The translations under genes and the position numbers were made by a program. A stretch of 64,000 nucleotides of DNA from Sphingobium yanoikuyae. Lineage in GTDB: Bacteria; Pseudomonadota; Alphaproteobacteria; Sphingomonadales; Sphingomonadaceae. Below the pieces are notes generated by a model, which saw only the letters and a program-made list of their open reading frames with translations, made no database searches and was not told where the DNA came from. The stretch spans positions 4,781,001 to 4,845,000 of the forward strand of contig NZ_CP053021.1 of NCBI RefSeq assembly GCF_013001025.1, in the 5' to 3' direction. Below are positions 35,287 through 56,895 of this stretch, one piece after another. Every line of letters starts with the position of its first letter. Position 1 is the first letter of the stretch.

Positions 35287-35336
35287 GAGTAAATCGGATG
35301 ACCGTCCCCCGGACGGTCAGTTGTTCCGATTTACTC
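35287..35336. repeat. Long compound palindrome at the island boundary
   Basis: A 12-bp perfect outer stem GAGTAAATCGGA (35287-35298) / TCCGATTTACTC (35325-35336) encloses an inner 9-bp stem TGACCGTCC / GGACGGTCA with a CCC loop, and a five-base asymmetric bulge GTTGT. It follows the LysR gene by 30 bases and has no T-run after it. It may end LysR transcription or mark a recombination site. Confidence 0.7.
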
Positions 35337-35734
35337 CCACTCAATTATCGATCGCATAATCTAACCATTTGAAAAGAGAAGCAAAAAAATATTTTCAAAA
35401 ACCGTTATACCGTCAGAACCGCCGACGCCAAGCTAGTGCTTATGAAAATATTGGGTTTTTTAGGCTCGATGGCCAGTCGCAAATTTCGCCATCTATCGCC
35501 GATGACGGTTGCCGGACCAAATTCGGGTCTGGGGCGGCGAAAGTGCTCGCAACAATCCCATCATACCGATCCGCAACCGAATTTTCCATCGGCATCGAAA
35601 GGTTCGGGCTTTGACACCTCTCCATATTGCGTCTCAGAAGCATAGTGCCGCTTCGATACCGATCGTCGGCGGACATCTTCCAAACCAAACTCATCATATC
35701 TGACACGTTATCAGTCGCTATCGGTCAAATTTGA
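35337..35734. other. AT-rich stretch without a recognisable gene
   Basis: About 400 bases between the palindrome and the HipA-like gene are clearly richer in A and T than anything to the left (runs such as AAAAAAATATTTTC near 35,384). Only short frames under 90 codons occur and none has family character or a good binding site. It probably marks the left part of the accessory region. Confidence 0.6.
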
Positions 35735-36967
35735 TTATGCGGCCATCGCAATTTCAGTTTCGGCATTTGCGAAGGCTGGCTCATAGTCACGCGCCAGCGC
35801 ACCTGACACGCCGACCTGACGCAGAGCCTCGCGCCATCCTTCCGATATGCGGCGAACCGTGTCGCGAACCATCCGTCTTGCCTCCTCGGGAGGAAGTTCG
35901 AAAAACTCACAAGCCTCGAGTGCAAGCGATATGGAGCGGTCGTGCGCACCGCCCTCCAAAATCGCCGTCTCAAGATGGGGATTTCGATCTGGAGCTGGGT
36001 TCACGTCGAACACCGGAGATAACCGCCATTGCCCGCCTCCCACATAGAGGAAGCCGTGGTTTTTCAGGTGGTCATCCTTGTTGGATACAAGGATCGTGAA
36101 AATTAGGCGCAGGAAAAGCTCGCGGAAATCGGCTTTGGGATCGGCGCCATAGGCCCGGATAAAATCGACGATCTCGGTATAAGAGCCCAGCTCCGTCCCG
36201 GTCTTCCCAAGGGCCGTGCGCGCCGAGATATAGGGAATCCGGGAACTGCCTCGCCGGTCGAACCGCTGGATCAGCGCGACCGGAAAGGGAGTGTCGGCGA
36301 GTTCAAGCCTGGCCGTAGGCGTGCGAATGCCGCAAGCTTGGGCTAGCCGAAGCGTCGCGACCTCGACCCGTTCGATCGGCTGCTGATCGTGAACCGAGGT
36401 GAATTTGGCCAACCAGAGCGTATCGCCGTCCTGGACATTGGCCTTGGGCCGGGCGCCGCCTGAACCGCCCGCGCCCGCCAATGCCTGCATCTCTTCGGCA
36501 GAGATCTCCTTACCCTGCTCATAGGCGCGGGCAATGGCCGTTATCGCTTCCAGCTCGACGAGGCGGGGCACGGCGTCACCCGCTTTACCGCGGATGATCT
36601 CTCCATCGTCGCCTTGAAATCGCAGTGCGCCCTGACGACAGGCGTCGTCGGACAGCGTCAGATACTCAAACTCGCTCAGACCATTGCCATAGGCACGTTC
36701 GAGAAGGCGCCGTCCCCAACTGTCCGGCGCGGCATCGGCGAAGACGCCCGCCAGTGCATCACGCATGTTCCCTGGCTGCCCCGACGTATGAAAAGGGCCG
36801 CCTTCTAGGGGAAGATCCGGCTGCACGGCAAAGGCGCGGGGATTTTCTATCCAGGCAGCGTCATAGGCAAAGGTCGAGAACTGCCGCGGCCCCGCTGCTG
36901 TGAAACGCAGCTGACCGACGGGCGCACGACTGTCGCCAAGAACAACCTGGGCAACGAACTCCGCCAT
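35735..36967 (-). CDS. hipA: HipA family type II toxin kinase
   Basis: Serine/threonine kinase-like toxin; E. coli HipA phosphorylates glutamyl-tRNA synthetase and causes persistence. The 410-residue product begins MAEFVAQVVLGDSRAPVGQLRF. It has the N-terminal HipA domain with GVFADAAPDSWGRRLLERA, an ATP-binding region (AGGSGGARPKANV, LWLAKFTS), and the catalytic and metal residues in LVSNKDDHLKNHGFLYV and LSPVFDVNPAP. It starts inside the antitoxin stop codon (TGATG), so the two are translationally coupled, antitoxin first, as in hipBA. Confidence 0.92.
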   Translation of the reverse strand: MAEFVAQVVLGDSRAPVGQLRFTAAGPRQFSTFAYDAAWIENPRAFAVQPDLPLEGGPFHTSGQPGNMRDALAGVFADAAPDSWGRRLLERAYGNGLSEFEYLTLSDDACRQGALRFQGDDGEIIRGKAGDAVPRLVELEAITAIARAYEQGKEISAEEMQALAGAGGSGGARPKANVQDGDTLWLAKFTSVHDQQPIERVEVATLRLAQACGIRTPTARLELADTPFPVALIQRFDRRGSSRIPYISARTALGKTGTELGSYTEIVDFIRAYGADPKADFRELFLRLIFTILVSNKDDHLKNHGFLYVGGGQWRLSPVFDVNPAPDRNPHLETAILEGGAHDRSISLALEACEFFELPPEEARRMVRDTVRRISEGWREALRQVGVSGALARDYEPAFANAETEIAMAA

Positions 36968-37344
36968 CAGAACGACGCTCCGTCAGGATCGACCACGTCA
37001 TCGAGCGCGCGCGTCGGCTCCGACTTGGCCTTTTGCTTTCTGACCCTGGTCGCGAAAGACTTGCCTCGTTGCGGCAGGCGCTCGCTAGAAAGCGCAAGCC
37101 CCAGATCATCCTTGCGGACATCGATCAGATCGGCCAGCCGTTCGACAAGCCCAAGAACGACCAGCACATCCGCAAGCGTCCCAATAGCAACGCCAGGGTC
37201 GCCCTTTTCGAGCCGCGCGATAGAACTGGCCGATGTTCCGGAGCGCAGGGCCAGGTCCGCAACCGCAATACTGCGCCGTAGCCGCGCATTTCGAATGTCC
37301 TGGCCAAGCCTTTCGAGGGCTGGTCTGACCTTTGGAGAGCCCAT
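36967..37344 (-). CDS. HipB-like XRE-family antitoxin
   Basis: Small helix-turn-helix protein expected to neutralise the adjacent HipA kinase and repress the operon. The 125-residue product has an XRE domain at residues about 10-65: LERLGQDIRNARLRRSIAVADLALRSGTSASSIARLEKGDPGVAIGTL, in which the recognition helix is TSASSIARLEKG. The C-terminal tail is basic (RVRKQKAKSEPT). Its stop overlaps the HipA start. A palindrome lies 23 bases upstream of the start. Confidence 0.88.
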   Translation of the reverse strand: MGSPKVRPALERLGQDIRNARLRRSIAVADLALRSGTSASSIARLEKGDPGVAIGTLADVLVVLGLVERLADLIDVRKDDLGLALSSERLPQRGKSFATRVRKQKAKSEPTRALDDVVDPDGASF

Positions 37345-37527
37345 GACAATGCCCCATATCTGATAAATTACGGAGTAATGTTTGTCATATTTGATGAGTT
37401 ATGTCAAGGATGCGGTGGCCGCGTGGACGCCGAATAACCGGAAACAGGCCTCACTCTTCGCCCAGTAGGAGGCAAAATCTGACTCGTGCCTGGCCAACCT
37501 CGGCTGGCCTCAGGATGATGGCGAGGA
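37345..37527 (-). promoter_or_regulatory. Promoter/operator region of the HipBA-like pair
   Basis: Within this 183-base gap ATTAC-GGA-GTAAT (37367-37379) is a perfect inverted repeat, flanked by two similar copies of ATCAAATATGAC/ATCAGATATGGG on the minus strand. TTGACA reads on the minus strand at 37407-37402 as a possible -35 box, but the -10 box at the right distance (CAAACA) is poor. The rest of the gap, towards the TcmP stop, holds nothing recognised. Confidence 0.5.
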
Positions 37528-38796
37528 CTATTCCTTCCGCCCCTGCGGGCTTTTTCCGGCATCCAAAAACATCGGAAAGAAGCTGCGCTGGGTCTTCACC
37601 TTGATGATGTCATTGACGCCGATCGTATTCGCTTTGCGTCTCTCGCCACCGGCTGGCGTGATCACCTCAAGATCGGGGTTCTCGATGATCGCGGCATGGA
37701 CGTCATCGGCATGCGCCGGCGTGACGTTGTAGATGCTCTCATAGAACTCCATCACCGACATGGCATCGCCAGCTTCAGTCACGAGACGGGGGACGTCATC
37801 AAGAAGCTGGGTCTTGGCCGAGGCACGGCCATTGTCATCGAAGAGATAGAGCATCCCCTCATCATGGCGCGGGTCATAGGACAACATGTTGAGGCCCGAT
37901 CGGCCGAAATGAGCCTGAAGGCTGGCATTGTCGTGGAGGATATTGTTGTAGACTTGCCGTGCCCGATAAGCGTTGGCGAAGTGGATCAACCAATAGCGCC
38001 AACCGCCAGGGTTGTTGATCGAGAACGGACTCACATAGGGCGCGCAAAGCCGGAAAGCGTCGAAGACGATCTTCTCTGCGGTTCCGAGCCAATCCTTCTG
38101 GCTCATCAACCCGTCCAGTGCCTGGACATCGCCGCTGGCGAGACCGAGATGATCGAGTTGCGCACGCAGGCGCTCCGGCTGGTCTTTCTGGAGGAACGCC
38201 AGCAAGGAACTGATGACGAAGGTGTAGAAGATCTCGGCCGCAGGATACGAGTGCATGATGTCGAGAATCGTATTCCGCTCGACATGGCTGTGGCCGCACT
38301 GATCCAGGTTGAAGATCACGCTGCGATAGCGTCCTTGCTCCAGGAAGCGCTTGATCTTGGGATAAGCGGTTTCGAAAAACTCGTTGAGATACTCGACGCG
38401 CAGATGGAGCTTCGGGCAGGTCGCGACGATGTCGGCCTGGAGCGGCGCCACATGCGTTTTTAGAAGTTCGATCGCATCACGGCTGGCATCGTTGAAGACC
38501 AGCAGGCACTCGACCTCGATCGCGTTCAAGCCCTGTGCCGCGCGATGCGTGTTCACGGCCTCGGTGGCTCGCTTCAACTCTTCGATGAAGATCAACGGAG
38601 AACCCGATGTCCCGCACTGGTAGCGGCCGCCCCCGGCGAAGCCATCGACAATGGCCAGCCGAAAACGTTCCTGCTGCGGCAGCTTGCAGCGAACGGTCAG
38701 GTAATCGAAGACATATTCACGGAGAATCTTGTGTTTGCGCCGCGAATGCTCCTCAAGCTTTGCGCCGTCAGCCCACTCGTATCGCTTCTCAACCAT
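37528..38796 (-). CDS. tcmP: Three-Cys-motif partner protein TcmP
   Basis: Member of the family defined by its habit of lying next to a three-cysteine-motif protein; its biochemistry is not established. The 422-residue product starts after a strong GGGGGGAT site. DGFAGGGRYQ at residues 51-60 looks like the glycine loop of a Rossmann-fold methyltransferase, and VIFNLDQCGHSHV could be the matching motif IV region. The C-terminal third is helical. It follows the DUF5131 gene by 26 bases, the expected partner. Both seem to be the output of one operon started by a DUF6088 regulator. Confidence 0.85.
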   Translation of the reverse strand: MVEKRYEWADGAKLEEHSRRKHKILREYVFDYLTVRCKLPQQERFRLAIVDGFAGGGRYQCGTSGSPLIFIEELKRATEAVNTHRAAQGLNAIEVECLLVFNDASRDAIELLKTHVAPLQADIVATCPKLHLRVEYLNEFFETAYPKIKRFLEQGRYRSVIFNLDQCGHSHVERNTILDIMHSYPAAEIFYTFVISSLLAFLQKDQPERLRAQLDHLGLASGDVQALDGLMSQKDWLGTAEKIVFDAFRLCAPYVSPFSINNPGGWRYWLIHFANAYRARQVYNNILHDNASLQAHFGRSGLNMLSYDPRHDEGMLYLFDDNGRASAKTQLLDDVPRLVTEAGDAMSVMEFYESIYNVTPAHADDVHAAIIENPDLEVITPAGGERRKANTIGVNDIIKVKTQRSFFPMFLDAGKSPQGRKE

Positions 38797-38822
38797 AGCA
38801 TCCCCCCAAGCCTATCTGACGA

Positions 38823-39605
38823 TCACGCGGACGCTTGCGCCGCCGTGGGCATTTCATCCCAGGTCTGACCGCGATATTCGCGGCCGTTCGCCTTTTTCGA
38901 TCGCTTCTTGTTGTCTTTGCCCCAGGTCCCCCACTGCTTGAAGAAGAAGGCTGTGCCAGCCGACAGGCACTGGATATAAATCTCGTCGATCCATTCCTCC
39001 CGGATGGGACGGGCGGACTTCCCGCTTTCCCCGCCCACGATAGCCCAATGGATGCCGCGCAGGTCGACGGTCCCCACAGACCCGATCAAAGGTTCGAACG
39101 ATATGAAACGGATCGCGGCCGGCGCAGCACGAAGGGCATCGATCCGGTCCACCACGTCCCCGTCTTCGATACTCGTGCCGAGCCAGACGTTCGGCAGCAC
39201 CTCTCCGATCTTGGTGGCGACCAGTTCCGCCATGCGCTCAGGCCGTTTCGTCAGGATCTGATAATTATGGCGTGGCGTCTCACGCATCACCTTCCAGACA
39301 TCGAGAATGAAGGCGTCCGTGACCTGCTCGTGAAACAGGTCGCTCATCGAATTGACGAAAATCTTGCGCGACTTGCGCCAGCCATAAGGAATCGCAAGCG
39401 CATCCCGGTCCTCACGCACAACGCCGTTCCAGACCGTCCTCTGCCCGCTCTTGCGGGTCAGACCGGCATATTTCTGGATGTGCATGGCCTCAAGGCGCTT
39501 AGCCATCTCCATGGCATAGCAATGGGTGCAGCCGGCGGTGATGATCGAGCAGCCGGCAACGGGGTTCCATGTGGCGTCAGTCCATTCGATTTGGGTTTCA
39601 GCCAT
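38823..39605 (-). CDS. DUF5131 / phage Gp37-Gp68 family three-cysteine protein
   Basis: The start MAETQIEWTDATWNPVAGC (39605) has GGGAGGGC just upstream; the extra in-frame residues to 39626 lack support. The 260-residue product has the signature TWNPVAGCSIITAGCTHCYAM, with cysteines at about 19, 26 and 29 (C-x6-C-x2-C), resembling a radical-SAM-like iron-sulfur site. Further conserved parts are WRKSRKIFVNSMSDLFHE, NYQILTKRPERM and VWLGTSIEDGDVVDRID, and WAIVGGESGKSARP near the end. Homologues occur in phages and mobile elements. Its partner TcmP follows. The chemistry is unknown. Confidence 0.9.
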   Translation of the reverse strand: MAETQIEWTDATWNPVAGCSIITAGCTHCYAMEMAKRLEAMHIQKYAGLTRKSGQRTVWNGVVREDRDALAIPYGWRKSRKIFVNSMSDLFHEQVTDAFILDVWKVMRETPRHNYQILTKRPERMAELVATKIGEVLPNVWLGTSIEDGDVVDRIDALRAAPAAIRFISFEPLIGSVGTVDLRGIHWAIVGGESGKSARPIREEWIDEIYIQCLSAGTAFFFKQWGTWGKDNKKRSKKANGREYRGQTWDEMPTAAQASA

Positions 39606-39641
39606 TGCGCCCTCCCGAGCGGTCATTGATCTGCTTTGGTA

Positions 39642-40259
39642 TCATTTCGTCATTTCTCTGGTTTCATACGCGACCTTGCCCACGCTCCTGGCAAGCCAGG
39701 TAGGCAGCTGCGGCGCAGCGGCGACCAGTTCGCCAAACACGCCGGGCGGCATCTTGCGCTTCAACGCCGTGAGCGCGGCTTCAGCCTTATCAGGGCCGAG
39801 CCAGGCCAGCGCCCTCACAACCTCCCCCGCCGGACGGTTGGCCAGGGCCAATTGCCAGCGCGGGGCATGCCGCAATTCCACGACCTGCTTGCCGAGATTC
39901 ATCTTCCGGCTGCGCCCAGAGGTCAGATAGACCGAACGAACCGGCACCTGCGTTGTCAGGCCAAGCGCGTTTGCGGCCGCCGCACCGTTCGAGACAATGG
40001 TCTCGCCACGCTGGCTGGCAAGGGCCTCCACGGCCTGTTCCACCGACGGCGCTCGCGTCCCAAACCGACTGACGACGGGGCGGAGATAGACACCGCGCCC
40101 AGCCCGGATGAGTTGTTCGCGCTCGGCCAGACGCGACAAGGCTTGGTCCACCGCTGCGCGATTGCCGAGATGGAGCAGCCCCTTAGCGGACACAGAAGCG
40201 CCCTCGGGCAAACCCGCCATATGCGACAGAATCTGTTCGGTCAGCCGTGTCATCGTCAT
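39642..40259 (-). CDS. DUF6088 (AbiEi-like) transcriptional regulator
   Basis: The start MTMTRLTEQILSHMAGLP (40259) is placed just downstream of a good promoter; the long in-frame extension to 40490 would cross that promoter. The 205-residue product has an N-terminal winged-helix-like part (SAKGLLHLGNRAAVDQALSRLAEREQLIRAGRGVYLRPV) and a C-terminal domain of the AbiEi/DUF6088 antitoxin type (GETIVSNGAAAANALGLTTQVPVRSVYLTSGRSR). In AbiE systems such a protein represses its operon and counters an AbiEii nucleotidyltransferase. No AbiEii gene follows; DUF5131 and TcmP do, the first after 36 bases. Confidence 0.85.
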   Translation of the reverse strand: MTMTRLTEQILSHMAGLPEGASVSAKGLLHLGNRAAVDQALSRLAEREQLIRAGRGVYLRPVVSRFGTRAPSVEQAVEALASQRGETIVSNGAAAANALGLTTQVPVRSVYLTSGRSRKMNLGKQVVELRHAPRWQLALANRPAGEVVRALAWLGPDKAEAALTALKRKMPPGVFGELVAAAPQLPTWLARSVGKVAYETREMTK

Positions 40260-40263
40260 TCTT

Positions 40264-40300
40264 CTGTCAGTAATATACGCAGTTTTCTGACAGTTTTCAA
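40264..40300 (-). promoter_or_regulatory. Sigma70-like promoter with overlapping inverted-repeat operator for the DUF6088-DUF5131-TcmP operon
   Basis: On the minus strand TTGAAA (40300-40295), a 17-base spacer and TATATT (40277-40272) make a near-consensus promoter. CTGTCAG inside the spacer and CTGACAG just after the -10 box (plus-strand 40287-40293 and 40264-40270) form an inverted repeat with a 16-base centre. A repressor bound there would block polymerase. The expected transcript start is only a few bases before the ATG. Confidence 0.7.
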
Positions 40301-40553
40301 GGAAACACATCCGGGACGGAAAGCTGGGACAAAGGGGGAAAGCCTTCCCCTGCGGTCGAGCCTTGGGTCTCGCCCGACCGCTTCTGCGGGGATATCCCCC
40401 AGGCTGTGCTAAAACCCACGGATCAGGCAAGCCTGTCCGGCGATCCTGAAGCCGTTTCACGGACAAATGGTGTTGGCCGGGAGCGACCAACGCCCGAAAT
40501 TAGCCGGCCGTCCGTTGAAAACCGGGGTACAGCCGGGAAGCGGAGTGGCGGAT
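40301..40553. other. Gene-free stretch with three consecutive hairpins
   Basis: Three perfect stems follow each other: GGGGAA-AGCC-TTCCCC (40335-40350), GCGGTCG...CGACCGC (40352-40381) and the 12-base palindrome GGGGATATCCCC (40388-40399). They lie between the norB stop and the DUF6088 promoter, both on the minus strand. They could end norB transcription, though no T-run follows, or be remnants of mobile-element backbone. No gene is seen. Confidence 0.55.
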
Positions 40554-42857
40554 CTAAAGCGCCGGCTTTGGAATGGCCGCCGTTTCTGGAGTCGGCTTCC
40601 TGCCGTGCATGAACGCCTGAACCATGAACCATGCGAACGCAAAGACACCGAATGCGAACACGATGTCGCCGGGCACCCTTGCCCAGACCAGCGCCTGCAT
40701 GATCGGGCTATGGATAAACTCCGCCGAGCGCGCATAGGCATAGCCGTGCTCGATGCTGGCGTAGGTCTGCAGGATGCCCTGCGGGAGCAGCGACAGGAAC
40801 GTCATCATGCCAAGGCCGATATTGAGCGACCAGAAGGAAATCCTGATCCATTTCTGGTTCCACCGCGTGACGTCGGTCAGTCCACGCATGCAATAGAGCG
40901 TCAGGCCAAGGCCGAGCATGCCATAGACGCCGAACAGCGCGGCGTGGCCATGGTTGGCCGTCGTGTTCAGCCCCTGCATATAATAGAGCGCGATCGGCGG
41001 GTTGATGAGGAAGCCGAACAGCCCGGCGCCGACCAGATTCCAGAACAGGACGGCGGCGAAAAACATGAACGGCCAGTGGTAGATTCGTTCCCACTCGGCC
41101 TCATGCTCGACCTTGTGGCGCGTATAGGCCTCGAAGCCGACCACCAGCAACGGCACCACTTCCAGCGCCGAGATCATCGCGCCGACCGCAATCACCGACG
41201 TCGGCGTCCCACTGAAATACAGGTGATGGAAGGTCCCGAGCACCCCGCCGAACAGGAAGATGATCGTCGCGAACAGCACCATCACGGTGGCGGTGGAGGT
41301 TCGCAGGATCCCCATCTGCACGAACAGCAGCGAGATGATGGCGGTCGCGAAGACCTCGAAAATGCCTTCCACCCACAGGTGCACAACCCACCAGCGCCAA
41401 TATTCCATGATGGCGATGTTCGTATGCTGGCCCCACATCAGCCCGGCGCCATACAGCAGCCCGATGGCGAGCGCCGACACCAGCACGAGATAGATGAGAG
41501 ACTTGCCGCCCTCCCGGCGCAGCACGGGCCGGAGTGCGCGCACCACCAATGCCACCCACAGGAACAGGCCGATCAGGAGGTAGATCTGCCAGAAACGGCC
41601 TAGGTCGACATACTCATAGCCCTGGTGCCCGAACCAGAAATTCGCCGTCAGGTTGGTGAAGAAGCGATGGACCGCCGCCCATTGCCCGGCGAACGAGCCG
41701 ATGACGATGACCAGAAGGCTGACGAACAGAAAGTTGACGCCGAGCCGCTGGAATTTGGGGTCGCGTCCCCCGAGCATCGGCGCGACATAGAGCCCGGTCG
41801 CCAGCCACGCCGTGGCGATCCACAGCACCGCGAGCTGCGTGTGCCATGTGCGGGTGATCGTGTAGGGAAGATATTCGGCGAAGGGCAGGCCGTAGAGCCC
41901 TTGCCCCTCGACCGCATAATGGGCGGTGACGATGCCGAGCAGCACCTGCGTCACGAAGAGCGCGCAGACGACCCAGAAATATTTCGCCGTGGCCCGCATC
42001 GACGGCGTGATGACCGCCTGCCCCAGTAGGTCGGAGGTCGCCATGCCATCCTCGGGCAGGATGTCGCCGCGCCAGACGTCAAACTGCTTGGCATAATAAG
42101 CGATCAGCGCCCCGGCTGCGGCAAGCAGCAGGATGACAGACGCAAGGCTCCACAACAATGTACCGGTGGTCGGGCTGTTGCCCACCAGGGGTTCGTGCGG
42201 CCAGTTGCTGGTATAGGTAATGGTCTGGCCCGGACGGTTCGTGGTCGCGCCCCATGCCGTCCAGAAATAAAAGGCGGCAAGCTGCCGGGCTTCCGCTTCC
42301 GACAGCTCGCCATAGACCGGAAAGGCATAGTCGCGGCGGAGCTGGAGCGAGGCGGGGTCGCCGCCATCGTACAGGCTGACGAAGTGCTGCTGCACCTGCC
42401 TGATCGCGCGCGCGCGCGCGTCGCTGACCGTTATGACGCCGGATGCGGGGTCATAGGTGTTCCTGCGCATTTCCTCCTGCAGCGCGGCCTTTCGCATCGC
42501 CTCCGCTTGCGTCGCGGATACCCCCTCAGGTACCGGCGAAGTCGATAGGGCGAGCAATGCCTCCGCCTCCCGGTGCAGCCAATCGGCGCTCCAGTCGGGC
42601 GCCAGATAGCTGCCATGGCCCCAGATCGAGCCCTGTTGCATGCCGCCGATCGACTGCCAGATATTCTGCCCGGCCTCGATGTCGGAGCGCGTGAACAAGG
42701 TTTCGCCTGAGGCCGATTTCACCGCTTCGGGAATGGGCGGCGCCTGCTGGTAGATCTGCTGACCGAGCAGCAGCAGGATGCCGAACATGACCACCATGCC
42801 GACCGACAGGATGATCCAGAGCCGATTGATGCTGAATGTCGTTTGATAGCTCTTCAT
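40554..42857 (-). CDS. norB: Quinol-dependent nitric oxide reductase (qNOR)
   Basis: Haem-copper-oxidase-like enzyme that reduces two NO to N2O using quinol. At 767 residues it has the length of the single-subunit quinol type, with an N-terminal cytochrome-c-like extension fused to the membrane part (QQAPPIPEAVKSASGETLF, GGMQQGSIWGHGSYLAPDWSADW). Catalytic histidines and glutamates are seen in VVHLWVEGIFEVFATAI, FHHLYFSGTPT and NHGHAALFGVYG, across about 14 helices. AGGGG precedes the start. It is the last gene of a four-gene unit opposite nsrR. The context points to NO detoxification rather than full denitrification. Confidence 0.96.
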   Translation of the reverse strand: MKSYQTTFSINRLWIILSVGMVVMFGILLLLGQQIYQQAPPIPEAVKSASGETLFTRSDIEAGQNIWQSIGGMQQGSIWGHGSYLAPDWSADWLHREAEALLALSTSPVPEGVSATQAEAMRKAALQEEMRRNTYDPASGVITVSDARARAIRQVQQHFVSLYDGGDPASLQLRRDYAFPVYGELSEAEARQLAAFYFWTAWGATTNRPGQTITYTSNWPHEPLVGNSPTTGTLLWSLASVILLLAAAGALIAYYAKQFDVWRGDILPEDGMATSDLLGQAVITPSMRATAKYFWVVCALFVTQVLLGIVTAHYAVEGQGLYGLPFAEYLPYTITRTWHTQLAVLWIATAWLATGLYVAPMLGGRDPKFQRLGVNFLFVSLLVIVIGSFAGQWAAVHRFFTNLTANFWFGHQGYEYVDLGRFWQIYLLIGLFLWVALVVRALRPVLRREGGKSLIYLVLVSALAIGLLYGAGLMWGQHTNIAIMEYWRWWVVHLWVEGIFEVFATAIISLLFVQMGILRTSTATVMVLFATIIFLFGGVLGTFHHLYFSGTPTSVIAVGAMISALEVVPLLVVGFEAYTRHKVEHEAEWERIYHWPFMFFAAVLFWNLVGAGLFGFLINPPIALYYMQGLNTTANHGHAALFGVYGMLGLGLTLYCMRGLTDVTRWNQKWIRISFWSLNIGLGMMTFLSLLPQGILQTYASIEHGYAYARSAEFIHSPIMQALVWARVPGDIVFAFGVFAFAWFMVQAFMHGRKPTPETAAIPKPAL

Positions 42858-42875
42858 GCCCCAAATCCCCTCCGG

Positions 42876-43358
42876 TCAGAACAGTCCGTGGCTGCCGCCT
42901 ACCGCGCCGAAAATTGTTATGACGCTGACAACAAGTAATAACTGATGCAGCCGTATCATTCGAGCGAAATCCGCCTCTGGTGACTGTGTATTGGCGAGGC
43001 GGCGATGAAGATGCAACGGCTCGATCACGAACAACATCAGCGCAAACACGGTCCAGAGTGCGACCATCAGGTGCATCCACCAGAACCGGGCGTCGAGGAA
43101 GCGGCTCCACAAATCGGCGCGCGCCACCAGCCACAGGCCGCTTGCGCCGGCAAGCAACACCCACAGGCGCGCCTGCCAGGCAAAGCGCGCCTCCATCTGC
43201 TGAAAACGGCGCAGGCGGTCCTGAGGCAGTTCCGTTGTCCTCAGCGTCGGCATCAGCACCCGGGTGACGAAGCCGACGCCGCCTATCCAGAACAGGACCG
43301 CGATGACATGCACCGCGCGAGCAAGGGCGAAGTCATCCACGGCCGGCGTCTTCGCCAA
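42876..43358 (-). CDS. CopD-like integral membrane protein of the NO cluster
   Basis: The 160-residue frame begins with TTG and has four transmembrane helices: ALARAVHVIAVLFWIGGVGFVT, ARLWVLLAGASGLWLVA, FWWMHLMVALWTVFALMLFVI and LHQLLLVVSVITIFGAVGG. Conserved histidines (HVIAVLFW, MHLMVA, LHLHRR, RLHQLL) suggest haem or metal binding as in CopD/cytochrome-b-like proteins. A GTG at 43340 is an alternative start. It overlaps the end of the DUF1971 gene by 26 bases and precedes norB by 18, so it is part of that operon. Function unknown; a helper for NorB is a reasonable guess. Confidence 0.75.
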   Translation of the reverse strand: MAKTPAVDDFALARAVHVIAVLFWIGGVGFVTRVLMPTLRTTELPQDRLRRFQQMEARFAWQARLWVLLAGASGLWLVARADLWSRFLDARFWWMHLMVALWTVFALMLFVIEPLHLHRRLANTQSPEADFARMIRLHQLLLVVSVITIFGAVGGSHGLF

Positions 43359-43626
43359 GGAACGGGCGTTCCCGGTAGAACTCGACCTGCATCGTCATGG
43401 GGCCGAGCGGAACGACATGATGGGTTGCTTGCGGCGGGATGATCGCGGGCCTGTCGGGCGTCACAAGCTGCTCGCTCGGCGGATCGACGAAAATGAGCCG
43501 CACTTCGCCGTCCAGCACCCGCAGCAATCCCCAGGTGCCCGCCTTGGTGCGATGATCGTTGCGTAGGGCATCAGGCAGGCTTTGCTCATCGAAGATCGGC
43601 GAGGCGCCATAGGGGGCGGGCGTCAT
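43333..43626 (-). CDS. DUF1971 (YeaR-like) cupin protein
   Basis: The 97-residue product matches DUF1971, found in E. coli YeaR and at the N-terminus of some TehB proteins: LPDALRNDHRTKAGTWGLLRVLDGEVRLIFVDP, then PAIIPPQATHHVVPLGPMTMQVEFYR. This is a small cupin-like beta barrel with histidines that could bind metal. yeaR in E. coli is induced by nitrate and NO, which suits its place here. Its ATGA start overlaps the truncated haemoglobin stop by 4 bases. Confidence 0.9.
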   Translation of the reverse strand: MTPAPYGASPIFDEQSLPDALRNDHRTKAGTWGLLRVLDGEVRLIFVDPPSEQLVTPDRPAIIPPQATHHVVPLGPMTMQVEFYRERPFLGEDAGRG

Positions 43627-44075
43627 GACGAGGCCCTCGCGGAAATGGCCGCCAGGCCGCCGCGGTCGATCTTGATGCCGGTCAGCAAGCTCTCGCCAAT
43701 GCGCAGTGCCGCTTCGCGAAACCGATCCGCGACCGCGGCGTTCTGCGCGATCCGGTCAAGCGTCTGGTTCCAGAGCGACTGCCAGCGCGCGAAATGCGCC
43801 TCATCGAGCCCGCCGATCGCGATGTGCTTGCGCATCGGATTGCCGCTGAAGCGCCCGGATTCGAGCATGACCGAGGCCCAGAAATCCTTCATCCGCGCCA
43901 GATGATGCGGCCAGTCGCCGATCCGTTCCGCAAAGATCGGGCCGAGCATGTCGTCCTGGCGGACGGTGCTGTAGAACCGCTCCACGAGTTGCGAGATGAA
44001 AGCATCATCGATTCCGCAGGCGAGCGCGTCCGCCATCTTGCGCGCCCGCGCCTGCTCGGCATGGTTCGACGTCAT
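43623..44075 (-). CDS. Group III truncated haemoglobin
   Basis: Small haem protein of the 2-on-2 globin fold, expected to bind O2 or NO. The 150-residue product shows FISQLVERFYSTVRQDDMLGPIFAERI, then WPHHLARMKDFWASVMLESGRFSGNPMRKHIAIGG, where HI-x-I places the proximal histidine, and FARWQSLWNQTLDRI. GAGGCAGG precedes the start. It is the first gene of the NO operon, 86 bases from the divergent nsrR gene, and an NsrR-like site lies 20 bases upstream of it. Confidence 0.93.
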   Translation of the reverse strand: MTSNHAEQARARKMADALACGIDDAFISQLVERFYSTVRQDDMLGPIFAERIGDWPHHLARMKDFWASVMLESGRFSGNPMRKHIAIGGLDEAHFARWQSLWNQTLDRIAQNAAVADRFREAALRIGESLLTGIKIDRGGLAAISARASS

Positions 44076-44094
44076 TGCCTGCCTCGACTCGATT

Positions 44095-44113
44095 AAGATG
44101 TATTCCTATGCAT
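44095..44113. promoter_or_regulatory. Putative NsrR operator 1
   Basis: AAGATGTATTCCTATGCAT resembles the NsrR half-site AAGATGYATTT and a partial second half. It lies 20 bases upstream of the truncated haemoglobin start, in the gap shared with nsrR. Assigned by likeness to the known consensus and by position. Confidence 0.65.
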
Positions 44114-44140
44114 GGTTTACGCGCGTTGGCGGATAAAACC

Positions 44141-44159
44141 AATATATGATATGCATCTT
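44141..44159. promoter_or_regulatory. Putative NsrR operator 2
   Basis: Read on the minus strand this is AAGATGCATATCATATATT, beginning with the strict NsrR half-site AAGATGCAT. It lies 2 bases before the nsrR start codon, which implies autoregulation. Together with operator 1 it forms an outward-facing pair (AAGATG ... CATCTT) about 46 bases apart. Confidence 0.65.
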
Positions 44160-44161
44160 TT

Positions 44162-44611
44162 ATGAGATTGTCCGTCCAGACCGACTATGCCCTTCGCACA
44201 CTGATGTTCCTGGCCGTGAAGGACGGCCATCATTCGATCGCCGAGATCGCACACGCTTATGGCATCTCGAAGAACCATCTGATGAAGGTGGCGCAGCGAC
44301 TGGCTGCGGAAGGATTTGTCGAGGGCGTGCGCGGTCGGAGCGGCGGCCTCAAGCTGGCGCGGCCCGCCAATGCCCTGAACGTTGGTTCGATCATGCGCGC
44401 CATGGAAGACACCGGGACCTTCGTGGAATGCTTCGACGCGGCGACCAACAGCTGCGTCGTGACGCCCGCATGCGGCTTGCGCCATGCCTTGGCAGGCGCG
44501 CTGGAAGCTTTCGCGCGACACCTCGATCAGTTCACCATCGCCGATCTCGTACCGGATTCCAAAAGCTACGGGTGGCAGCTCGATGCGCAAGCGGCCACTG
44601 CTTCGACGTAA
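44162..44611 (+). CDS. nsrR: Nitric-oxide-sensing Rrf2 family repressor NsrR
   Basis: Iron-sulfur repressor that releases DNA when NO attacks its cluster. The 149-residue product starts MRLSVQTDYALRTLMFLA, the usual Rrf2/NsrR start, and has the winged helix (SIAEIAHAYGISKNHLMKVAQRLAAEGFVEGVRGRSGGLKLA). The three cluster cysteines are Cys90, Cys98 and Cys104 in ECFDAATNSCVVTPACGL, the NsrR arrangement. There is no clear ribosome binding site, so the message may be leaderless. It faces the haemoglobin-norB operon, with two operator-like sites between. Confidence 0.93.
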   Translation: MRLSVQTDYALRTLMFLAVKDGHHSIAEIAHAYGISKNHLMKVAQRLAAEGFVEGVRGRSGGLKLARPANALNVGSIMRAMEDTGTFVECFDAATNSCVVTPACGLRHALAGALEAFARHLDQFTIADLVPDSKSYGWQLDAQAATAST

Positions 44612-44655
44612 CGGAGAACCCGGCGATTCTGACCTCATCCTTCTCGGAAGCCCGC

Positions 44656-44692
44656 AACATCTGTAATGAGTTATTACGCCACCTAGCGCAGA
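44656..44692. repeat. Hairpin downstream of nsrR
   Basis: AACATCTG and CAGATGTT form an 8-bp inverted repeat separated by about 20 bases. It lies in the 160-base gap between nsrR and the transposase. It may end nsrR transcription or belong to the insertion target. Confidence 0.4.
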
Positions 44693-44710
44693 TGTTCAAA
44701 GCCAAGAACA

Positions 44711-46256
44711 AGCTTTTACTCATGAACCTGTCAGTGTAGAATCCAATTATCTTCCCATCCTCCACGCCGGGGTGTGCATGAGTTTTATTGAGGGACTCGC
44801 ACGAGACCAGGTCAGCCTGCTTCCTCCTTGTGTTGATGACTATGTTTCCCCGGACGCATTGGTCCGAGTCGTCGATGCTTTTGTTACCAGCTTGAACTTG
44901 GCAGAGCTTGGCTTCGGTCGTGCTATCGCTGCGGTCACCGGCCGCCCTGGATACCATCCAGGCGATATGCTCCGGCTGTACATCTGGGGCTACCTCAACC
45001 AGGTACGGTCCTCACGCCAATTGGAACGAGCGTGTGTCCGCGACCTCGAAGCGCTTTGGCTAATGCGCCGGCTCGCCCCGGATTACCGAACGATCGCCTC
45101 CTTTCGTCATGACAATCCGGAAGCCATTGTCGGCGCCAGCGCTGCATTCATCCAGTTCTGCCGCGAAACCGGCTTGATCAGCGGTCGATTGGTCGCGCTG
45201 GACGGGACGAAGATGCGCGCGGTCGCGAGCCCAAAGAACATCGCTGGCGCCGACCGGCTGGCCCGTGACGTTGCGCACACCGAAAAGGAGATCGCCTACT
45301 ACCTTGAACGGCTCGACATCATAGATGAGGCAGTGGCCCAGGGGTTCGACGATCAGCCCAAACATCGGGAGGCGTTCACCACTGCGATCGAGACCCTCGG
45401 GCGCCGCAAGGACAGGCTCGTGCGCCGGCAGGACATCCTGAAGGATCGCGACGAGACGGCTTTGGTCTTTGGCGAGTCCGACGCGCGGCCGATGGGCTAT
45501 GGACGTTCTCCCAAGACACCCTGCTACAACATGCAAAGCGTGGTCGATGTAGATAGCGGCCTGATCATACATCACGACGTGACCAACGAGGCAAACGACA
45601 GCCAGCTCCTGCATCCAATGTCGATGGCGACGATGGAGGTGCTTGAGGTTAACGAGCTCAAAGTCCTGGCCGACGGCGGTTACTCCAACGCCCAGGCGGT
45701 CGCGCAATGCGAGCGCGACCATATTGAGGTCGCGGCGCCGATCAAACGCGGCGCCATGAGCACCGATTTTTTCCGGCCAGCGCAGTTCGTGTATGATGAG
45801 GGGACCGACACAATCCGGTGCCCCGCCGGCAAGACGTTGAGACCATCCGGCAAACATACCCGCAACCGTGCGATCCGATATAGAACGTCCGCATGCAAAG
45901 ACTGTCGGCTGAAGAGCCGATGCACGTGGGGCGCCCAACGGACCATCCATCGGTTGTTCGACCAGGCGGCGCTGGATCGTATGGAGGCCAGAATCTACGC
46001 GGATCCGAGCTTGATGGTGACCCGCCGATGTACTGTAGAGCACCCCTTCGGCACGATTAAACGGATGTCCGGCGGCGGAAGGTTCCTCACGCGAGGTCTC
46101 AGAGCGGTAAAGGCCGAAGCGGCTCTCTCGATTGTCGCCTTCAACATCCTCCATGCAGTAAATGCCTTCGGTGTCGAGCGACTGACGCCAGCGGGGTGAG
46201 ACGCGCGTCGCGGTGCTGGTGGCGGCGGATTAGACGAATGAGTTTTTGCACAGCCT
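44711..46256 (+). mobile_element. IS1182-family insertion sequence (ends approximate)
   Basis: One transposase gene fills the element. The right end is probably near 46256, where ATGAGTTTTTGCACAGCC reads like the usual terminal repeat of this family. The left side has only a weak counterpart, AGCTTTTACTCAT at 44711-44723, matching about half the positions. No target duplication could be assigned. The element separates the NO cluster from the conjugative-element backbone. Confidence 0.6.
44772..46199 (+). CDS. IS1182 family transposase
   Basis: DDE transposase of 475 residues (473 from the ATG at 44778; GTG at 44772 is the alternative). The N-terminal domain is YVSPDALVRVVDAFVTSLNL and YHPGDMLRLYIWGYLNQVRSSRQLERAC. 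The first catalytic aspartate is in LVALDGTKMRAVASPKN, the second in LKVLADGGYSNAQAV, and the glutamate in CTVEHPFGTIKRMSGGGRFLTRG. A zinc-type cysteine set CKDCRLKSRCTW lies before it, as in the family. The reading frame is intact, so the element could be active if its ends are. Confidence 0.93.
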   Translation: MCMSFIEGLARDQVSLLPPCVDDYVSPDALVRVVDAFVTSLNLAELGFGRAIAAVTGRPGYHPGDMLRLYIWGYLNQVRSSRQLERACVRDLEALWLMRRLAPDYRTIASFRHDNPEAIVGASAAFIQFCRETGLISGRLVALDGTKMRAVASPKNIAGADRLARDVAHTEKEIAYYLERLDIIDEAVAQGFDDQPKHREAFTTAIETLGRRKDRLVRRQDILKDRDETALVFGESDARPMGYGRSPKTPCYNMQSVVDVDSGLIIHHDVTNEANDSQLLHPMSMATMEVLEVNELKVLADGGYSNAQAVAQCERDHIEVAAPIKRGAMSTDFFRPAQFVYDEGTDTIRCPAGKTLRPSGKHTRNRAIRYRTSACKDCRLKSRCTWGAQRTIHRLFDQAALDRMEARIYADPSLMVTRRCTVEHPFGTIKRMSGGGRFLTRGLRAVKAEAALSIVAFNILHAVNAFGVERLTPAG

Positions 46257-46275
46257 GCCCCGCAACGCCCCCCAT

Positions 46276-50728: not shown

Positions 50729-50750
50729 CATGTCGGCAGCGACGTGTTCG

Positions 50751-50845
50751 AGAGTGAGAGGGCCGCCGGGACGGGTTTGAGTCCGCGCGGTCGAGAGAGA
50801 GCGCCGTCCGGGCTTCCCGTTCCCGCTCTCCCGAGGTTCCGATCC
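50751..50845 (+). promoter_or_regulatory. Repeated structured leader, family 1, copy 3 (strawberry-notch gene)
   Basis: Begins AGAGTGAGAGGGCCGCC, 95 bases before the ATG, and has GACGGGTTTGAG, GGTCGAGAGAGAG and a late CCCGTTCCC. It starts right after the terminator of the small-gene trio, so it probably begins with or contains a promoter. It is more diverged than copies 1 and 2 in its 3' half. Confidence 0.65.
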
Positions 50846-53119
50846 ATGAACATCATGTCCCCCGTGGCCGGTCCGGCTGCGCCCGTTGCCCGCGCGTCCG
50901 CCATCATCGCCGTCGCCCATCAGCTTCTCACCCTGCTCGAACGCGGCCAGCGGATCGACAACGCCAATCTCCGCATCGCCATGGAAACGGCTTTCGAGGC
51001 CTCCGACACGAGTGGCGCTTGGGACTGGAAGACGGCCTACGAAGCCTGTGAAGGCGCGACCGTCCTGTTCCTGCGCAAATACGGACGTGCGCTTTTCCGT
51101 AAAGCCGGCACTCCGACTGCACGGCTTTCCGCGCTGTCGAAAATCACCGGCCTTCTGCCGACGCACACCCTTCGCTCCGAGGAAGCCCAGGCGCTTCAGC
51201 AATTCTCGACGCCGGTCCCGCTCGGCCTCGCCGCGATCGCGGCCGCCGCGATCACACCGCACGACATTGTGCTGGAGCCGTCGGCAGGCACGGGTCTTCT
51301 CGCCATCCTCGCCGAGATCAGCGGCGGCTCGCTGCTCCTCAACGAACTGGCGGAAACCCGCGCCGATCTGCTTGGCCAGCTCTTTCCAGCCCTTGTCGCT
51401 ACGCGGTTCGACGCCGCCCAGATCGACGACCACCTTCCAGCGTGCGCCGTCCCTTCCGTCATCGTGATGAACCCGCCCTTCTCGGTGATGGCGAACGTCT
51501 CCGGTCGGGTCGCCGACGCCGCTGCGCGTCATGTTGCTTCGGCCCTGGCGCGGCTTGCCGATGGCGGGCGTCTGGTGACGATCACCGGCGCAAACTTCGG
51601 CCCCGAGCAACCGGCCTGGCGCGACACCTTCGCCCGGCTTCAGGAGCGTAGCCGCGTCGTCTTCACCGCGGCGATCCACGGCTCAGTCTATGCCAAGCAT
51701 GGCACGAGCATCGAAACGCGGCTCACCGTCATCGACAAGCTGCCGGCCGAAGACACGGCCACGTTCCCTGGGTCCGCCGGCGTTGCGCCCGACGTCGCTA
51801 CGCTGCTCGCATGGATCGAAGCGCAGATTCCACCGCGCCTGCCGGTCACACTGCCCGACATCGCGCCGCCCGTGTCGGGCTCGGCGCCCCGCACCGTGCG
51901 GGGTTATCTCGCACGCACCGCCACTGAGCGTCCGGCCACATGCTCGACCATGGACCCGCAGGGCGTTGAACTCGCCTACGACACGATGGACTGGACGCCG
52001 CCGGAAGGCACCCACCTCACGGACGCGATCTATGAAGAATACGGATTGCAGTCGATCCGTATTGCCAGTTCTCAGGCGCACCCCACCAAGCTCGTGCAGT
52101 CGGCGGCCATGGCGAGCGTTGCACCGCCCAAGCCCGCCTATCGGCCGATGCTGCCCGCGAACATCACCGATCTCCTGTCGGACGCCCAGCTCGAAACCGT
52201 CATCTATGCCGGCGAAGCCCATTCGGACTTCCTCGCCGGCTCCTGGATCGTCGATGCGACCTGCGATCTCGTACAGGCGGCCAAGCCCGATGCCGAAAAC
52301 GCCGTGCGCTTCCGGCGCGGCTTCATGCTCGGCGACGGCACCGGGGCCGGCAAAGGCCGTCAATCTGCCGGCATCATCCTCGACAACTGGCTGCGCGGTC
52401 GCCGCAAGGCGGTCTGGATCTCCAAATCCGACAAGCTGATCGAGGACGCGCAGCGCGATTGGTCCGCGCTCGGCATGGAGCGTCTGCTGGTCACGCCGCT
52501 GTCGCGCTTCCCGCAAGGGCGGCCGATCACGCTGTCGGAAGGCGTCCTGTTTGCAACCTATGCCACGCTACGGTCCGACGACCGTGGTGAGAAGGTTTCC
52601 CGTGTCCGGCAGATCGTCGAATGGTTGGGCTCCGATTTTGATGGAGTGATCATTTTCGACGAAAGCCACGCCATGGCCAATGCCGCAGGCGGCAAGGGAG
52701 AACGCGGCGACGTTGCCGCCTCACAGCAGGGACGCGCGGGACTTCGGCTTCAGCACGCCCTGGCCAACGCGCGCGTCGTCTATGTGTCGGCTACCGGCGC
52801 GACCACCGTCCACAATCTCGCCTATGCCCAGCGGCTCGGCTTGTGGGGCGGTGAGGATTTCCCCTTCACCACCCGCGCCGAATTTGTCGAGGCGATCGAG
52901 GACGGCGGTGTCGCGGCCATGGAAGTGCTCGCCCGCGACCTGCGTGCGCTGGGCCTCTATACCGCCCGATCGCTCTCCTACGATGGCGTCGAATATGAGC
53001 TGATCGAGCACGCCCTGACCGACGAGCAGCGGCGTATCTACGATGCCTACGCCAGCGCCTTCGCTGTCTTATGCGCAGCTGCGCATAAGATCGCTTATCA
53101 CGAGGTCGCGATAATGTGA
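50846..53119 (+). pseudogene. Strawberry-notch-like helicase/methylase, N-terminal fragment (interrupted by RIT element)
   Basis: The start MNIMSPVAGPAAPVARA (50846) gives an N-terminal fragment of about 741 native residues. It has an adenine-methylase-like domain (EPSAGTGLLAIL as SAM motif I, NPPF at about residue 209 as motif IV), then the strawberry-notch helicase core with Walker A GDGTGAGKG near residue 496 and DESHAMANA near residue 604. Native sequence ends at GTC 53066-53068 (YASAFAV); 16 foreign residues follow before a stop at 53119. The rest of the gene resumes at 56897 in the right frame. Without the C-terminal RecA-like lobe the fragment is unlikely to work as a helicase. Confidence 0.88.
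53069..53092. repeat. Perfect 20-bp palindrome at the left RIT junction
   Basis: TTATGCGCAGCTGCGCATAA is a perfect palindrome inserted between the interrupted gene and the left terminal repeat, followed by GATC. Its half CTGCGCATAA matches the inner end motif CTGCGCATTAT of the element. The right side has no such extra segment. Confidence 0.8.
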
Positions 53120-53130
53120 AGGAACGCGGC
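53093..53130 (+). repeat. Left terminal inverted repeat of the RIT element
   Basis: Starts GCTTATCACGAGGTCGCGAT and continues to GGAACGCGGC. It matches the reverse complement of 56858-56895 at 34 of 38 positions (differences at repeat positions 8, 25, 27 and 35). Confidence 0.85.
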
Positions 53131-53223
53131 AGCGACGTGGATTCTCCTAATGCGGGGCGATGTTGCTGCGCATTATTTTGATTGCGAACCTCGGCGGTCT
53201 CTGGACCAGCTGAGGATAAAAGC

Positions 53224-54456
53224 ATGTTGAAATTGCACGACGAGTTGATCGCCGAACTCTCGAATTTGCTCACGACGCAGAATTATAACCCGGTGGTCGT
53301 AGCGAACCATCGCCTGTACGCCCGCGCGTTTCTCGATTATCTGGCCGAGTGCGGCGTGCAGGTGGAAACTGTGACGCTGGCGCAGGTCGATCAGTATCTT
53401 GCCTATGCAGTTCAGGATTTCGAAGCCCAGTACGGGCGGCCTCCCTGTGCGCGCTGGCAGATGTTGCCCCGCACATCGATCAACAAACTGCTCCGGCTTG
53501 CCCAAGGCAAATGGCCGCCCGAGCCAGAGATGACCGAACCGGAAACCGCGTATCGGCAGGCGATCTGCTGCGAATACGAGGCATGGCTGCGCGACGAGCG
53601 CGGTCTGGCGAGCGCTTCCATCTCGGCGCTTCTGTGGGAGGCACGGAACTTCCTGCGATGGCAGTTCGAACGGGGCGGGGCCGCCAGCCTCGACACCTTG
53701 AGCATCGGGGAGGTCGATCTCTACATGGACATGCGCGCCCCTGGATTACGGCGCAAATCATTGGCCGATGTCGCTGAGCGGCTCCGGTCGGTGGTGCGGT
53801 ATCTGCATCGGACGAGGCGCATCCCGATGGATCTCACGCCGCACATCATCGGCCCCATGCTCTACGCCTATGAAGACGTGCCCTCGACGCTGGACAGGCG
53901 CCAAATCGCCGCGGTGCTGGCGGCGACGAAGAAGGATGGATCGCCGCGGGGACTGCGCGATTTTGCGGTACTTCAACTGCTTGCCACATATGGGTTGCGC
54001 GAAGGTGAGATCTGTCGCCTTCGGCTTGAAGACGTGAACTGGCGCGGAGAAGCCCTGCGTATCCGTCACACCAAGACCAATGCGTACTCCTACTTGCCGC
54101 TATTGGCGCCCGTTGGTGAGGCGCTCCTCGACTATCTGCGTAATGGGCGCCCCCAGGTTGAGGGGCGGGAAATCTTCATCCGGTCCTGCGCGCCCTATAT
54201 CGCAATGACAAACCTGTATGGCATGATCCGCGGGCGGTTGTCAGCCGCTGGCGTCGAGCCGCCGGGAAAGCGAGGAGCGCATGTCTTTCGCCACGCGCGG
54301 GCGGTCGAAATGCTGCGGGCGTCGGTCCCGCAAAAGATCATCGGCGACGTGCTCGGACATCGATCCACCGAATCCACCAACGCCTATCTCAAGCTGGCGA
54401 CAGATGATCTCCGAGCCGTGGCGCTCGACGTGCCCGGATCGGAGGTGCTGCCATGA
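53224..54456 (+). CDS. ritA: RIT tyrosine recombinase A
   Basis: Site-specific recombinase of the phage integrase family. The start MLKLHDELIAELSNLL (53224) has GAGGA about 9 bases upstream; an in-frame ATG at 53182 is less likely. The 410-residue product has an N-terminal SAM-like core-binding domain (CEYEAWLRDERGLASASISALLWEARNFLRWQFER) and a catalytic domain with arginine I in YGLREGEICRLRLEDV, the HxxR in HVFRHARAVEML and the GHRSTESTNAYLK block with the nucleophile tyrosine. Its last 4 bases (ATGA) are the start of the second recombinase. Confidence 0.93.
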   Translation: MLKLHDELIAELSNLLTTQNYNPVVVANHRLYARAFLDYLAECGVQVETVTLAQVDQYLAYAVQDFEAQYGRPPCARWQMLPRTSINKLLRLAQGKWPPEPEMTEPETAYRQAICCEYEAWLRDERGLASASISALLWEARNFLRWQFERGGAASLDTLSIGEVDLYMDMRAPGLRRKSLADVAERLRSVVRYLHRTRRIPMDLTPHIIGPMLYAYEDVPSTLDRRQIAAVLAATKKDGSPRGLRDFAVLQLLATYGLREGEICRLRLEDVNWRGEALRIRHTKTNAYSYLPLLAPVGEALLDYLRNGRPQVEGREIFIRSCAPYIAMTNLYGMIRGRLSAAGVEPPGKRGAHVFRHARAVEMLRASVPQKIIGDVLGHRSTESTNAYLKLATDDLRAVALDVPGSEVLP

Positions 54457-56809: not shown

Positions 56810-56857
56810 AATAATGTGAAGGACGTGGCGAAATGCTCAGCAGCTTTGCGGGCCTTC

Positions 56858-56895
56858 GCCACGTTCCTGCGCATTATCGCGACCTCGCGATAAGC
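56858..56895 (-). repeat. Right terminal inverted repeat of the RIT element
   Basis: Reverse complement of the left end; on the minus strand it begins GCTTATCGCGAGGTCGCGAT. It pairs with an upstream arm at about 56,812-56,832 to form a large hairpin. One base after it the strawberry-notch sequence resumes. Confidence 0.85.

Follow-up and report, generated by a model that had tools for sequence, protein, structure and literature searches.

Defence genes often adjoin toxin-antitoxin (TA) genes, and whether the TA genes act there as killer, addiction module or switch is usually unclear. For the type IV TA system AbiE, a passage in PMC3985639 reports that the antitoxin AbiEi represses its own promoter via inverted repeats, the toxin playing no part in it. 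A second system of interest here, PDC-M30, is described in a section of PMC10855318 as a guilt-by-embedding candidate, predicted in 32 of 100 Pseudomonas aeruginosa strains, of which 68.8% were resistant. We analyzed a stretch of 64,000 nucleotides from Sphingobium yanoikuyae (contig NZ_CP053021.1, positions 4,781,001 to 4,845,000; the whole stretch is called the window) in which an AbiEi-type gene of the DUF6088 family stands without its toxin gene AbiEii and is followed by a DUF5131 and a TcmP gene. New here are the orphan AbiEi autorepressor heading this known candidate pair and a pattern of same-strand TA heads in front of related pairs. An operon with repressor and operator but no toxin is a natural test of the idea that TA genes serve as switches. 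The reading we prefer, and to which we give an even chance, is that DUF5131-TcmP modifies nucleic acids as a defence-type pair under the control of an AbiEi autorepressor whose toxin has been lost.

Promoter and operator in front of the orphan AbiEi gene

Sequence and family profiles agree with the three-gene operon proposed in a preliminary description of the window: DUF6088, DUF5131 and TcmP follow each other in this order on the minus strand, with spacings of 36 and 26 bases (Table 1). The length of DUF6088 is counted from the start common to its homologues; an upstream in-frame ATG would extend the gene to 40259, and some of our analyses took a start at 40265, which adds two residues ahead of that ATG. 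The single near-consensus promoter with an inverted-repeat operator was also found as proposed, the -10 hexamer lying inside a perfect repeat with arms of 7 base pairs (bp).

We searched 14 related loci for this arrangement and located the DUF6088 start in 13 of them, the exception being L259 (loci are given by our own numbers). An arm TGTCAGAAA precedes DUF6088 in all 13, AbiEii-bearing loci included. The second arm, CTGACA, is exact in six and shows one or two mismatches in seven, with or without AbiEii. Since the arms are kept throughout the located loci the operator is not a product of chance, and by this comparison promoter and operator belong to AbiEi. Given the kept operator and the autorepression reported for AbiEi, repression of DUF5131-TcmP by the orphan protein is expected. 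The regulator had been described as wired to the two enzymes; this holds in the sense of a shared transcription from the AbiEi promoter, as suggested by the sequence, and fails in the sense of a dedicated tie.

Table 1. Features of the operon and its surroundings (positions in the window)
Feature	Position	Strand	Evidence
DUF6088, orphan AbiEi-type antitoxin/regulator, 203 amino acids (aa)	39642..40253	-	PF19570 E 3.2e-26; PADLOC AbiEi 3.4e-66
DUF5131 (phage Gp37/Gp68 family), radical-SAM-like by prediction, 260 aa	38823..39605	-	PF07505 335.7 bits, cut-off 28.9
TcmP, predicted RlmJ-like methyltransferase domain and C-terminal winged helix, 422 aa	37528..38796	-	TIGR04474 225 bits, cut-off 53
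-35 hexamer TTGAAA	40295..40300	-	Sequence; TTGAAA or variant there in 13 located DUF6088 loci
-10 hexamer TATATT, 17-base spacer to -35	40272..40277	-	Sequence and comparison of DUF6088 loci
Inverted-repeat operator around -10, perfect 7-bp arms CTGTCAG (40264-40270) and CTGACAG (40287-40293)	40264..40293	.	Sequence
Junction	39606..39665	-	Homology to AbiEi-AbiEii loci stops at 39665; GGGAGGG ribosome site in the leader
HipB-like helix-turn-helix (HTH) gene	36967..37344	-	HTH_3 3e-5; couple_hipB 7.9e-10, below cut-off; same 5-kb block
HipA-like kinase toxin	35735..36967	-	PF07804 2.4e-45
Element end at guaA-type attachment site	35325..35345	-	GAGTGGGAGTAA; same end in L079, L028, L025, L027

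The missing AbiEii gene

Profiles, homologues and a genome-wide search identify DUF6088 as an AbiEi-type regulator that lacks its partner, as had been suspected: no AbiEii match at E <= 0.001 was found anywhere in the window's genome. The usual partnership is readily seen elsewhere. A profile survey of the class, covering 241 genomes, gave 39 DUF6088 matches, 26 of them with an AbiEii match no more than 1 kb away. Of 15 related copies that we checked with profiles, none of them from the orphan group, 13 have an AbiEii frame after DUF6088 (L274-L276, L257-L259, L281-L286 and L037); L287 has none, and L050 is truncated by a contig end. DUF6088 homologues on plasmids are 77-90% identical among the best 30 of 433 records, 14 of these 30 having an annotated AbiEii under the match, while the other 16 are unannotated or without that feature. 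The window's genome holds a second DUF6088 gene (L142, contig 2), which is 36% identical.

For TcmP we retrieved 80 relatives (59-100% identity) together with as much as 10 kb of flank on each side. DUF6088 stands directly ahead of DUF5131 in only 6 of these 80 loci, and in the survey it adjoins DUF5131 in 1 of 39 matches, namely the window's own; most cassettes carry a different head or none that we recognised. On these counts we reject a dedicated three-gene system as the preliminary description had it. Moreover, AbiEii follows close DUF6088 genes, in some of them at the same backbone position as the operon of the window, a finding that the preliminary description had itself named as speaking against its proposal.

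The DUF5131-TcmP pair and its neighbours

The pair itself is a conserved unit. The preliminary description had suggested asking how often the families co-occur. In the same 241 genomes 15 of 16 TcmP matches above cut-off lie within 1 kb of DUF5131, against the 1 in 39 for DUF6088 and DUF5131. DUF5131 in turn adjoins TcmP in 15 of 38 matches, and the window's genome has two further DUF5131 genes and only one TcmP. The order of the pair varies across the wider family, as TcmP lies ahead of DUF5131 in the distant pairs L109, L114 and L119 and both genes converge in L117. In PADLOC-DB v2.0.0 the DUF5131 protein matches PDC-M41B (9.8e-100) and PDC-M30B (6e-94), and TcmP matches PDC-M30A (4e-21, residues 13-277 only). 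With a TcmP-like A member and a DUF5131 B member adjacent across a 26-base gap, the pair falls within PDC-M30/M41. No functional study of the pair was recognised in the set of openly licensed PMC papers searched, nor was the name DUF5131 found there; three papers of the set use the name 'three-Cys-motif partner' and six use variants of the older Gp37/Gp68 name, one of these in its joined form.

Cysteines C18, C25 and C28 of DUF5131 form the C-x6-C-x2-C motif and are invariant in two alignments of 39 and 53 proteins. The protein is predicted to fold as a partial TIM-barrel, and radical-S-adenosylmethionine (SAM) entries, judged by title, take ranks 1-39 of the structure aligner's table, including rank 36, which we take to be such an entry. 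TcmP contains the motif DGFAGGG and is predicted to adopt an RlmJ-type methyltransferase fold. A sequence search for solved relatives returned none at E up to 1. The earlier characterization of both proteins is supported: DUF5131 looks like a radical-SAM enzyme and TcmP like a methyltransferase, by structure prediction an RlmJ-like one without the DPPY motif.

The operon had been described as lying among TA and mobile genes with a possible role in defence, and relatives of the pair do have defence and TA genes as neighbours. Six of 10 selected neighbours match known defence families in PADLOC (HamA at 2.3e-117, HamB twice, a type IIG restriction-modification enzyme, AbiH and an LmuB-like SMC protein). 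HamA is found with HamB in 9 of the 80 loci, HamB alone in L067, and Mrr-type nucleases were detected with Pfam. On plasmid pSymA of Sinorhizobium meliloti the pair lies tail-to-tail with an 845-aa DEAD-type helicase frame (1020 bits for PADLOC PDC-S28); a further TcmP, a short one of 308 aa, is also present (PDC-M41A, 1.8e-61). In this locus (L277:7147-12808, strain 1021) DUF5131 and the long TcmP, of PDC-M30A type, converge with the Hna-like helicase and the short TcmP, of PDC-M41A type, so that both branches of TcmP are found at a single DUF5131 locus. By position and family the helicase is taken as Hna (SMa2245) and the short TcmP as SMa2243; these two are reported in an excerpt of PMC12445080 to rise jointly with NolR.

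The occurrence of the two genes in phages and plasmids bears on an alternative in which the pair serves counter-defence, modifying the DNA of the element itself (or targets of host restriction) and helping it to enter by conjugation, much as DUF5131 on its own may help phages. Using tblastn with the window proteins, DUF5131 relatives were found in 159 of 50,697 phage records and TcmP relatives in 61 of 72,556 plasmid records; 28 of these 61 plasmids are conjugative, and an ArdC-type anti-restriction gene lies within the element of the window. However, TcmP is nearly absent from these phage records, with a single match, and the identified neighbours include known defence genes. We regard this alternative as unlikely, though it deserves weight.

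A mosaic on a mobile element

The unit is a mosaic, carried by a mobile element that is integrated at guaA, rather than a bespoke three-gene system. Elements in Phenylobacterium (L025), Sphingobium (L027), Aureimonas (L028) and Novosphingobium (L079) have the block 35335-40399 in common, which reaches from HipA through DUF6088 to the region upstream of it; Prosthecomicrobium L026 shares it from 35695 on, where that locus ends. At 35335 the block ends in GAGTGGGAGTAA, which is like the 3' end of guaA, and guaA itself was matched as a 555-aa open frame about 10.8 kb to the right of the window, at 4855756 on the contig. The operon is therefore placed at the outer end of a guaA-integrated element, whose backbone contains ArdC-like, ParB-like, helicase and Toprim genes. 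At the other side, position 40399 joins the backbone at 46257/46258 directly in L025-L028, L030, L257 and L274-L276.

A further junction lies within the operon (Table 1). The match of L274-L276 and L257 to the window covers just 39665-40399 and takes up again from backbone 46257/46258, and AbiEii stands next to DUF6088 at the same backbone spot as the operon of the window. Homology of the window to AbiEi-AbiEii loci stops at the AbiEii start codon, and the window's AbiEi has a C-terminal tail different from that of 13 other copies read, which are 197-198 aa long. The DUF6088 proteins of the window and of L025-L027 have the same tail on different bodies, which points to an exchange of the DUF6088 body between elements. 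L030 DUF6088 carries another tail, and the L030 orphan may represent a second event.

Another alternative is that the orphan AbiEi is kept as an anti-addiction gene neutralising AbiEii of related elements, its control of the pair being incidental. Sister elements with the same ArdC-like/ParB backbone do carry DUF6088-AbiEii at this spot, the C-terminal domain of AbiEi alone is described as antitoxic in part of PMC3985639, and Vineibacter L030 has a second, convergent AbiE 69 bases after TcmP. Yet antitoxicity alone would need neither the kept promoter and operator nor the short same-strand spacing to DUF5131, and the window's genome has no AbiEii match; we consider this explanation improbable.

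Within the block an HTH gene is followed by HipA, as in HipBA modules, the HTH gene scoring below the HipB subfamily cut-off. A stretch with a NorB-type nitric oxide reductase (40400-46257) separates cassette and backbone in the window and in L079 and is missing from L025-L028 and L030. As 40399 is contiguous with the backbone elsewhere, it is most simply a separate insertion shared with L079. Further along, an insert of about 3.8 kb (53069-56893) with three tandem tyrosine recombinases (53182-54456, 54453-55808 and 55628-56809), resembling a recombinase-in-trio element, splits a Strawberry-notch-type helicase gene into halves at 50744-53119 and 56924-58996; L025, L026, L028 and L030 are contiguous there.

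Exchangeable toxin-antitoxin heads

We defined an upstream head as a TA gene at most 500 bases before DUF5131, and 74 loci had enough upstream sequence to be scored. A recognised head on the same strand was found in 33 of them, and none of the 74 had one on the opposite strand only. VapC with a small preceding gene is the most frequent (17 loci), followed by orphan DUF6088 (6), AbiEi-AbiEii (4), PIN (3), DarG with DarT (2) and MNT-HepT (1). The label VapB rests on position, the sole such protein scanned having no Pfam match. L058 is a third DarTG-headed locus and falls outside the 33 because its DUF5131 frame was over-extended. Downstream of TcmP, TA genes occur within 500 bases on the same strand in 10 of 80 loci and on the opposite strand in one. 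As controls we used 14 DUF5131 singletons (two of them, L132 and L133, with little upstream sequence) and 14 class-wide pairs, and found no TA head in either set. A Phenylobacterium zucineum plasmid is annotated with AbiEi, AbiEii, Gp37/Gp68 and TcmP in this order. Two Mesorhizobium loci have a DUF6088 relative next to, and divergent from, a DUF5131-TcmP pair with a VapBC head; AbiEii follows this relative in L037 (6332-8125), and L050 is truncated by the contig end.

A TcmP tree of 75 labelled rows (quick search, Shimodaira-Hasegawa-like approximate likelihood ratio test (SH-aLRT) support only, midpoint root; L058 labelled DarTG and L071 other) shows how the heads are distributed. The DUF6088-headed rows sit in a clade of 38 rows (SH-aLRT 97) together with every one of the 17 VapBC-headed rows, AbiE heads are found at two places, and the seven head states need 13 changes compared with a shuffled mean of 31.3. 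Because the window's cassette lies inside the clade with all VapBC-headed rows, heads have been swapped. The leader between head and DUF5131 resembles the one that follows VapC in VapBC-headed relatives, so that AbiEi most simply replaced VapBC. TA modules thus look like exchangeable switches for immune genes.

We also inspected 10 of the 30 listed plasmid rows around DUF6088, of which eight were annotated and two unannotated. Same-strand defence-like cargo follows DUF6088-AbiEii in four of the eight: SIR2-ATPase, ATPase-UvrD, DUF4238 with SIR2, and a Hachiman-like DUF1837-helicase. L287 is without AbiEii, as mentioned. That cargo and TA genes merely accrete at a hotspot by ArdC and guaA, leaving DUF6088 as a remnant without functional tie, would suit the clean junctions at which three separate modules (AbiEi, DUF5131-TcmP and HipBA) meet and the AbiE copies that are not followed by any evident defence cargo (L283, L285 and L286), but it is rendered doubtful by the same-strand orientation of all 33 recognised heads, of several types on the tree, and by the cargo in these four plasmid regions.

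Discussion

In the reading we prefer, a defence pair under an AbiEi autorepressor, DUF5131-TcmP would be a mobile defence-type cassette made of a radical-SAM protein and an RlmJ-like SAM methyltransferase that ends in a winged helix. The two enzymes would most likely act in turn on bases of invader nucleic acid, or else on host RNA during infection. The cassette may have come behind AbiEi by a swap in which AbiEii was omitted and an earlier VapBC head displaced. With its operator kept, AbiEi should then repress the shared promoter and hold the pair low; once AbiEi is titrated or disappears, for instance because a phage has stopped synthesis in the host, the pair would be released, and this induction on infection could give an anti-phage effect. 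More broadly, TA modules might be exchangeable infection sensors for defence cargo, the autorepressed antitoxin promoter rather than the toxin being the useful part. The cargo would then be a new two-enzyme effector, with nucleic acid modified successively by an RlmJ-like methyltransferase and a radical-SAM enzyme resembling spore photoproduct lyase; we put this forward as a speculation that is probably wrong in at least some part.

The preferred reading is favoured by the listing of both proteins in PADLOC-DB, the P. aeruginosa predictions, the defence genes near relatives, the occurrence of TcmP in plasmid rather than phage records, the clade and leader shared with VapBC-headed loci, the conserved operator, the autorepression reported for AbiEi and the predicted folds. 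Several observations weigh against it. In PADLOC-DB the pair is an unvalidated phage-defence candidate, and its PDC entry is based on guilt-by-embedding only. Of the 10 selected neighbours, three have no PADLOC match and one a weak candidate match. No TA head was recognised in 41 of the 75 tree rows, with a PIN gene later found in one of these (L071); in L036 a GNAT acetyltransferase lies divergently upstream, a possible toxin outside our profile set. The head control is biased because the TA profiles were seeded from the same loci. Concerning the enzymes, the usual radical-SAM cluster motif is CX3CX2C, from which the cysteine spacing of DUF5131 departs, although atypical spacing occurs elsewhere in the superfamily. 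Foldseek gave a single PDB match for DUF5131 at E <= 0.001, a weak support, and for TcmP a histamine methyltransferase heads the list instead of RlmJ. RlmJ carries a DPPY-type catalytic motif; motif IV of TcmP reads LDQCG and not DPPY or DPFG, which makes its catalysis uncertain.

The history of the orphan genes is a further point on this side. Orphan DUF6088 genes formed one clade in none of 200 bootstrap trees. L284 and L286 were left out of this tree, and L287 (no AbiEii found) and L050 (contig end) were labelled AbiEii-partnered, neither label making the orphans one clade. Since orphans are intermixed with other copies their divergence is not all time spent without toxin, and most of it may predate the loss of AbiEii, judging from the tree. 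Long purifying selection on the orphan AbiEi had been considered from ratios of about 0.08 between the window copy and L025 or L030, and was dropped because of this mixing. Only the pair L025 and L027, from one orphan clade, bears on selection; it shows 10 synonymous and 3 nonsynonymous changes (ratio 0.11 on 13 changes), which counts in favour of the preferred reading.

A cassette found behind several TA types and a lineage with repressor and operator but without toxin make the role of TA genes directly testable in one operon, which would also offer a first handle on DUF5131 and TcmP chemistry.

In comparison with known systems, the operon shares with type IV AbiE an AbiEi gene and, by sequence, an inverted-repeat operator over the promoter, and differs in that AbiEii is absent and DUF5131-TcmP stands in its place. 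With the defence-like cargo behind AbiE on plasmids it has in common that DUF6088 leads genes on the same strand, as in half of the annotated regions; there, in contrast, AbiEii is kept. TcmP differs from RlmJ, the 23S rRNA adenine-N6 methyltransferase, by LDQCG in place of DPPY and by an extra C-terminal winged helix, and DUF5131 differs from spore photoproduct lyase, viperin and RlmN by an identity of 10-12% in the aligner rows and by its C-x6-C-x2-C spacing. Closest is PDC-M30/M41, of which both members are matched and adjacent here; the profiles found cover these two proteins only, whereas the orphan AbiEi and the other TA heads fall to other models.

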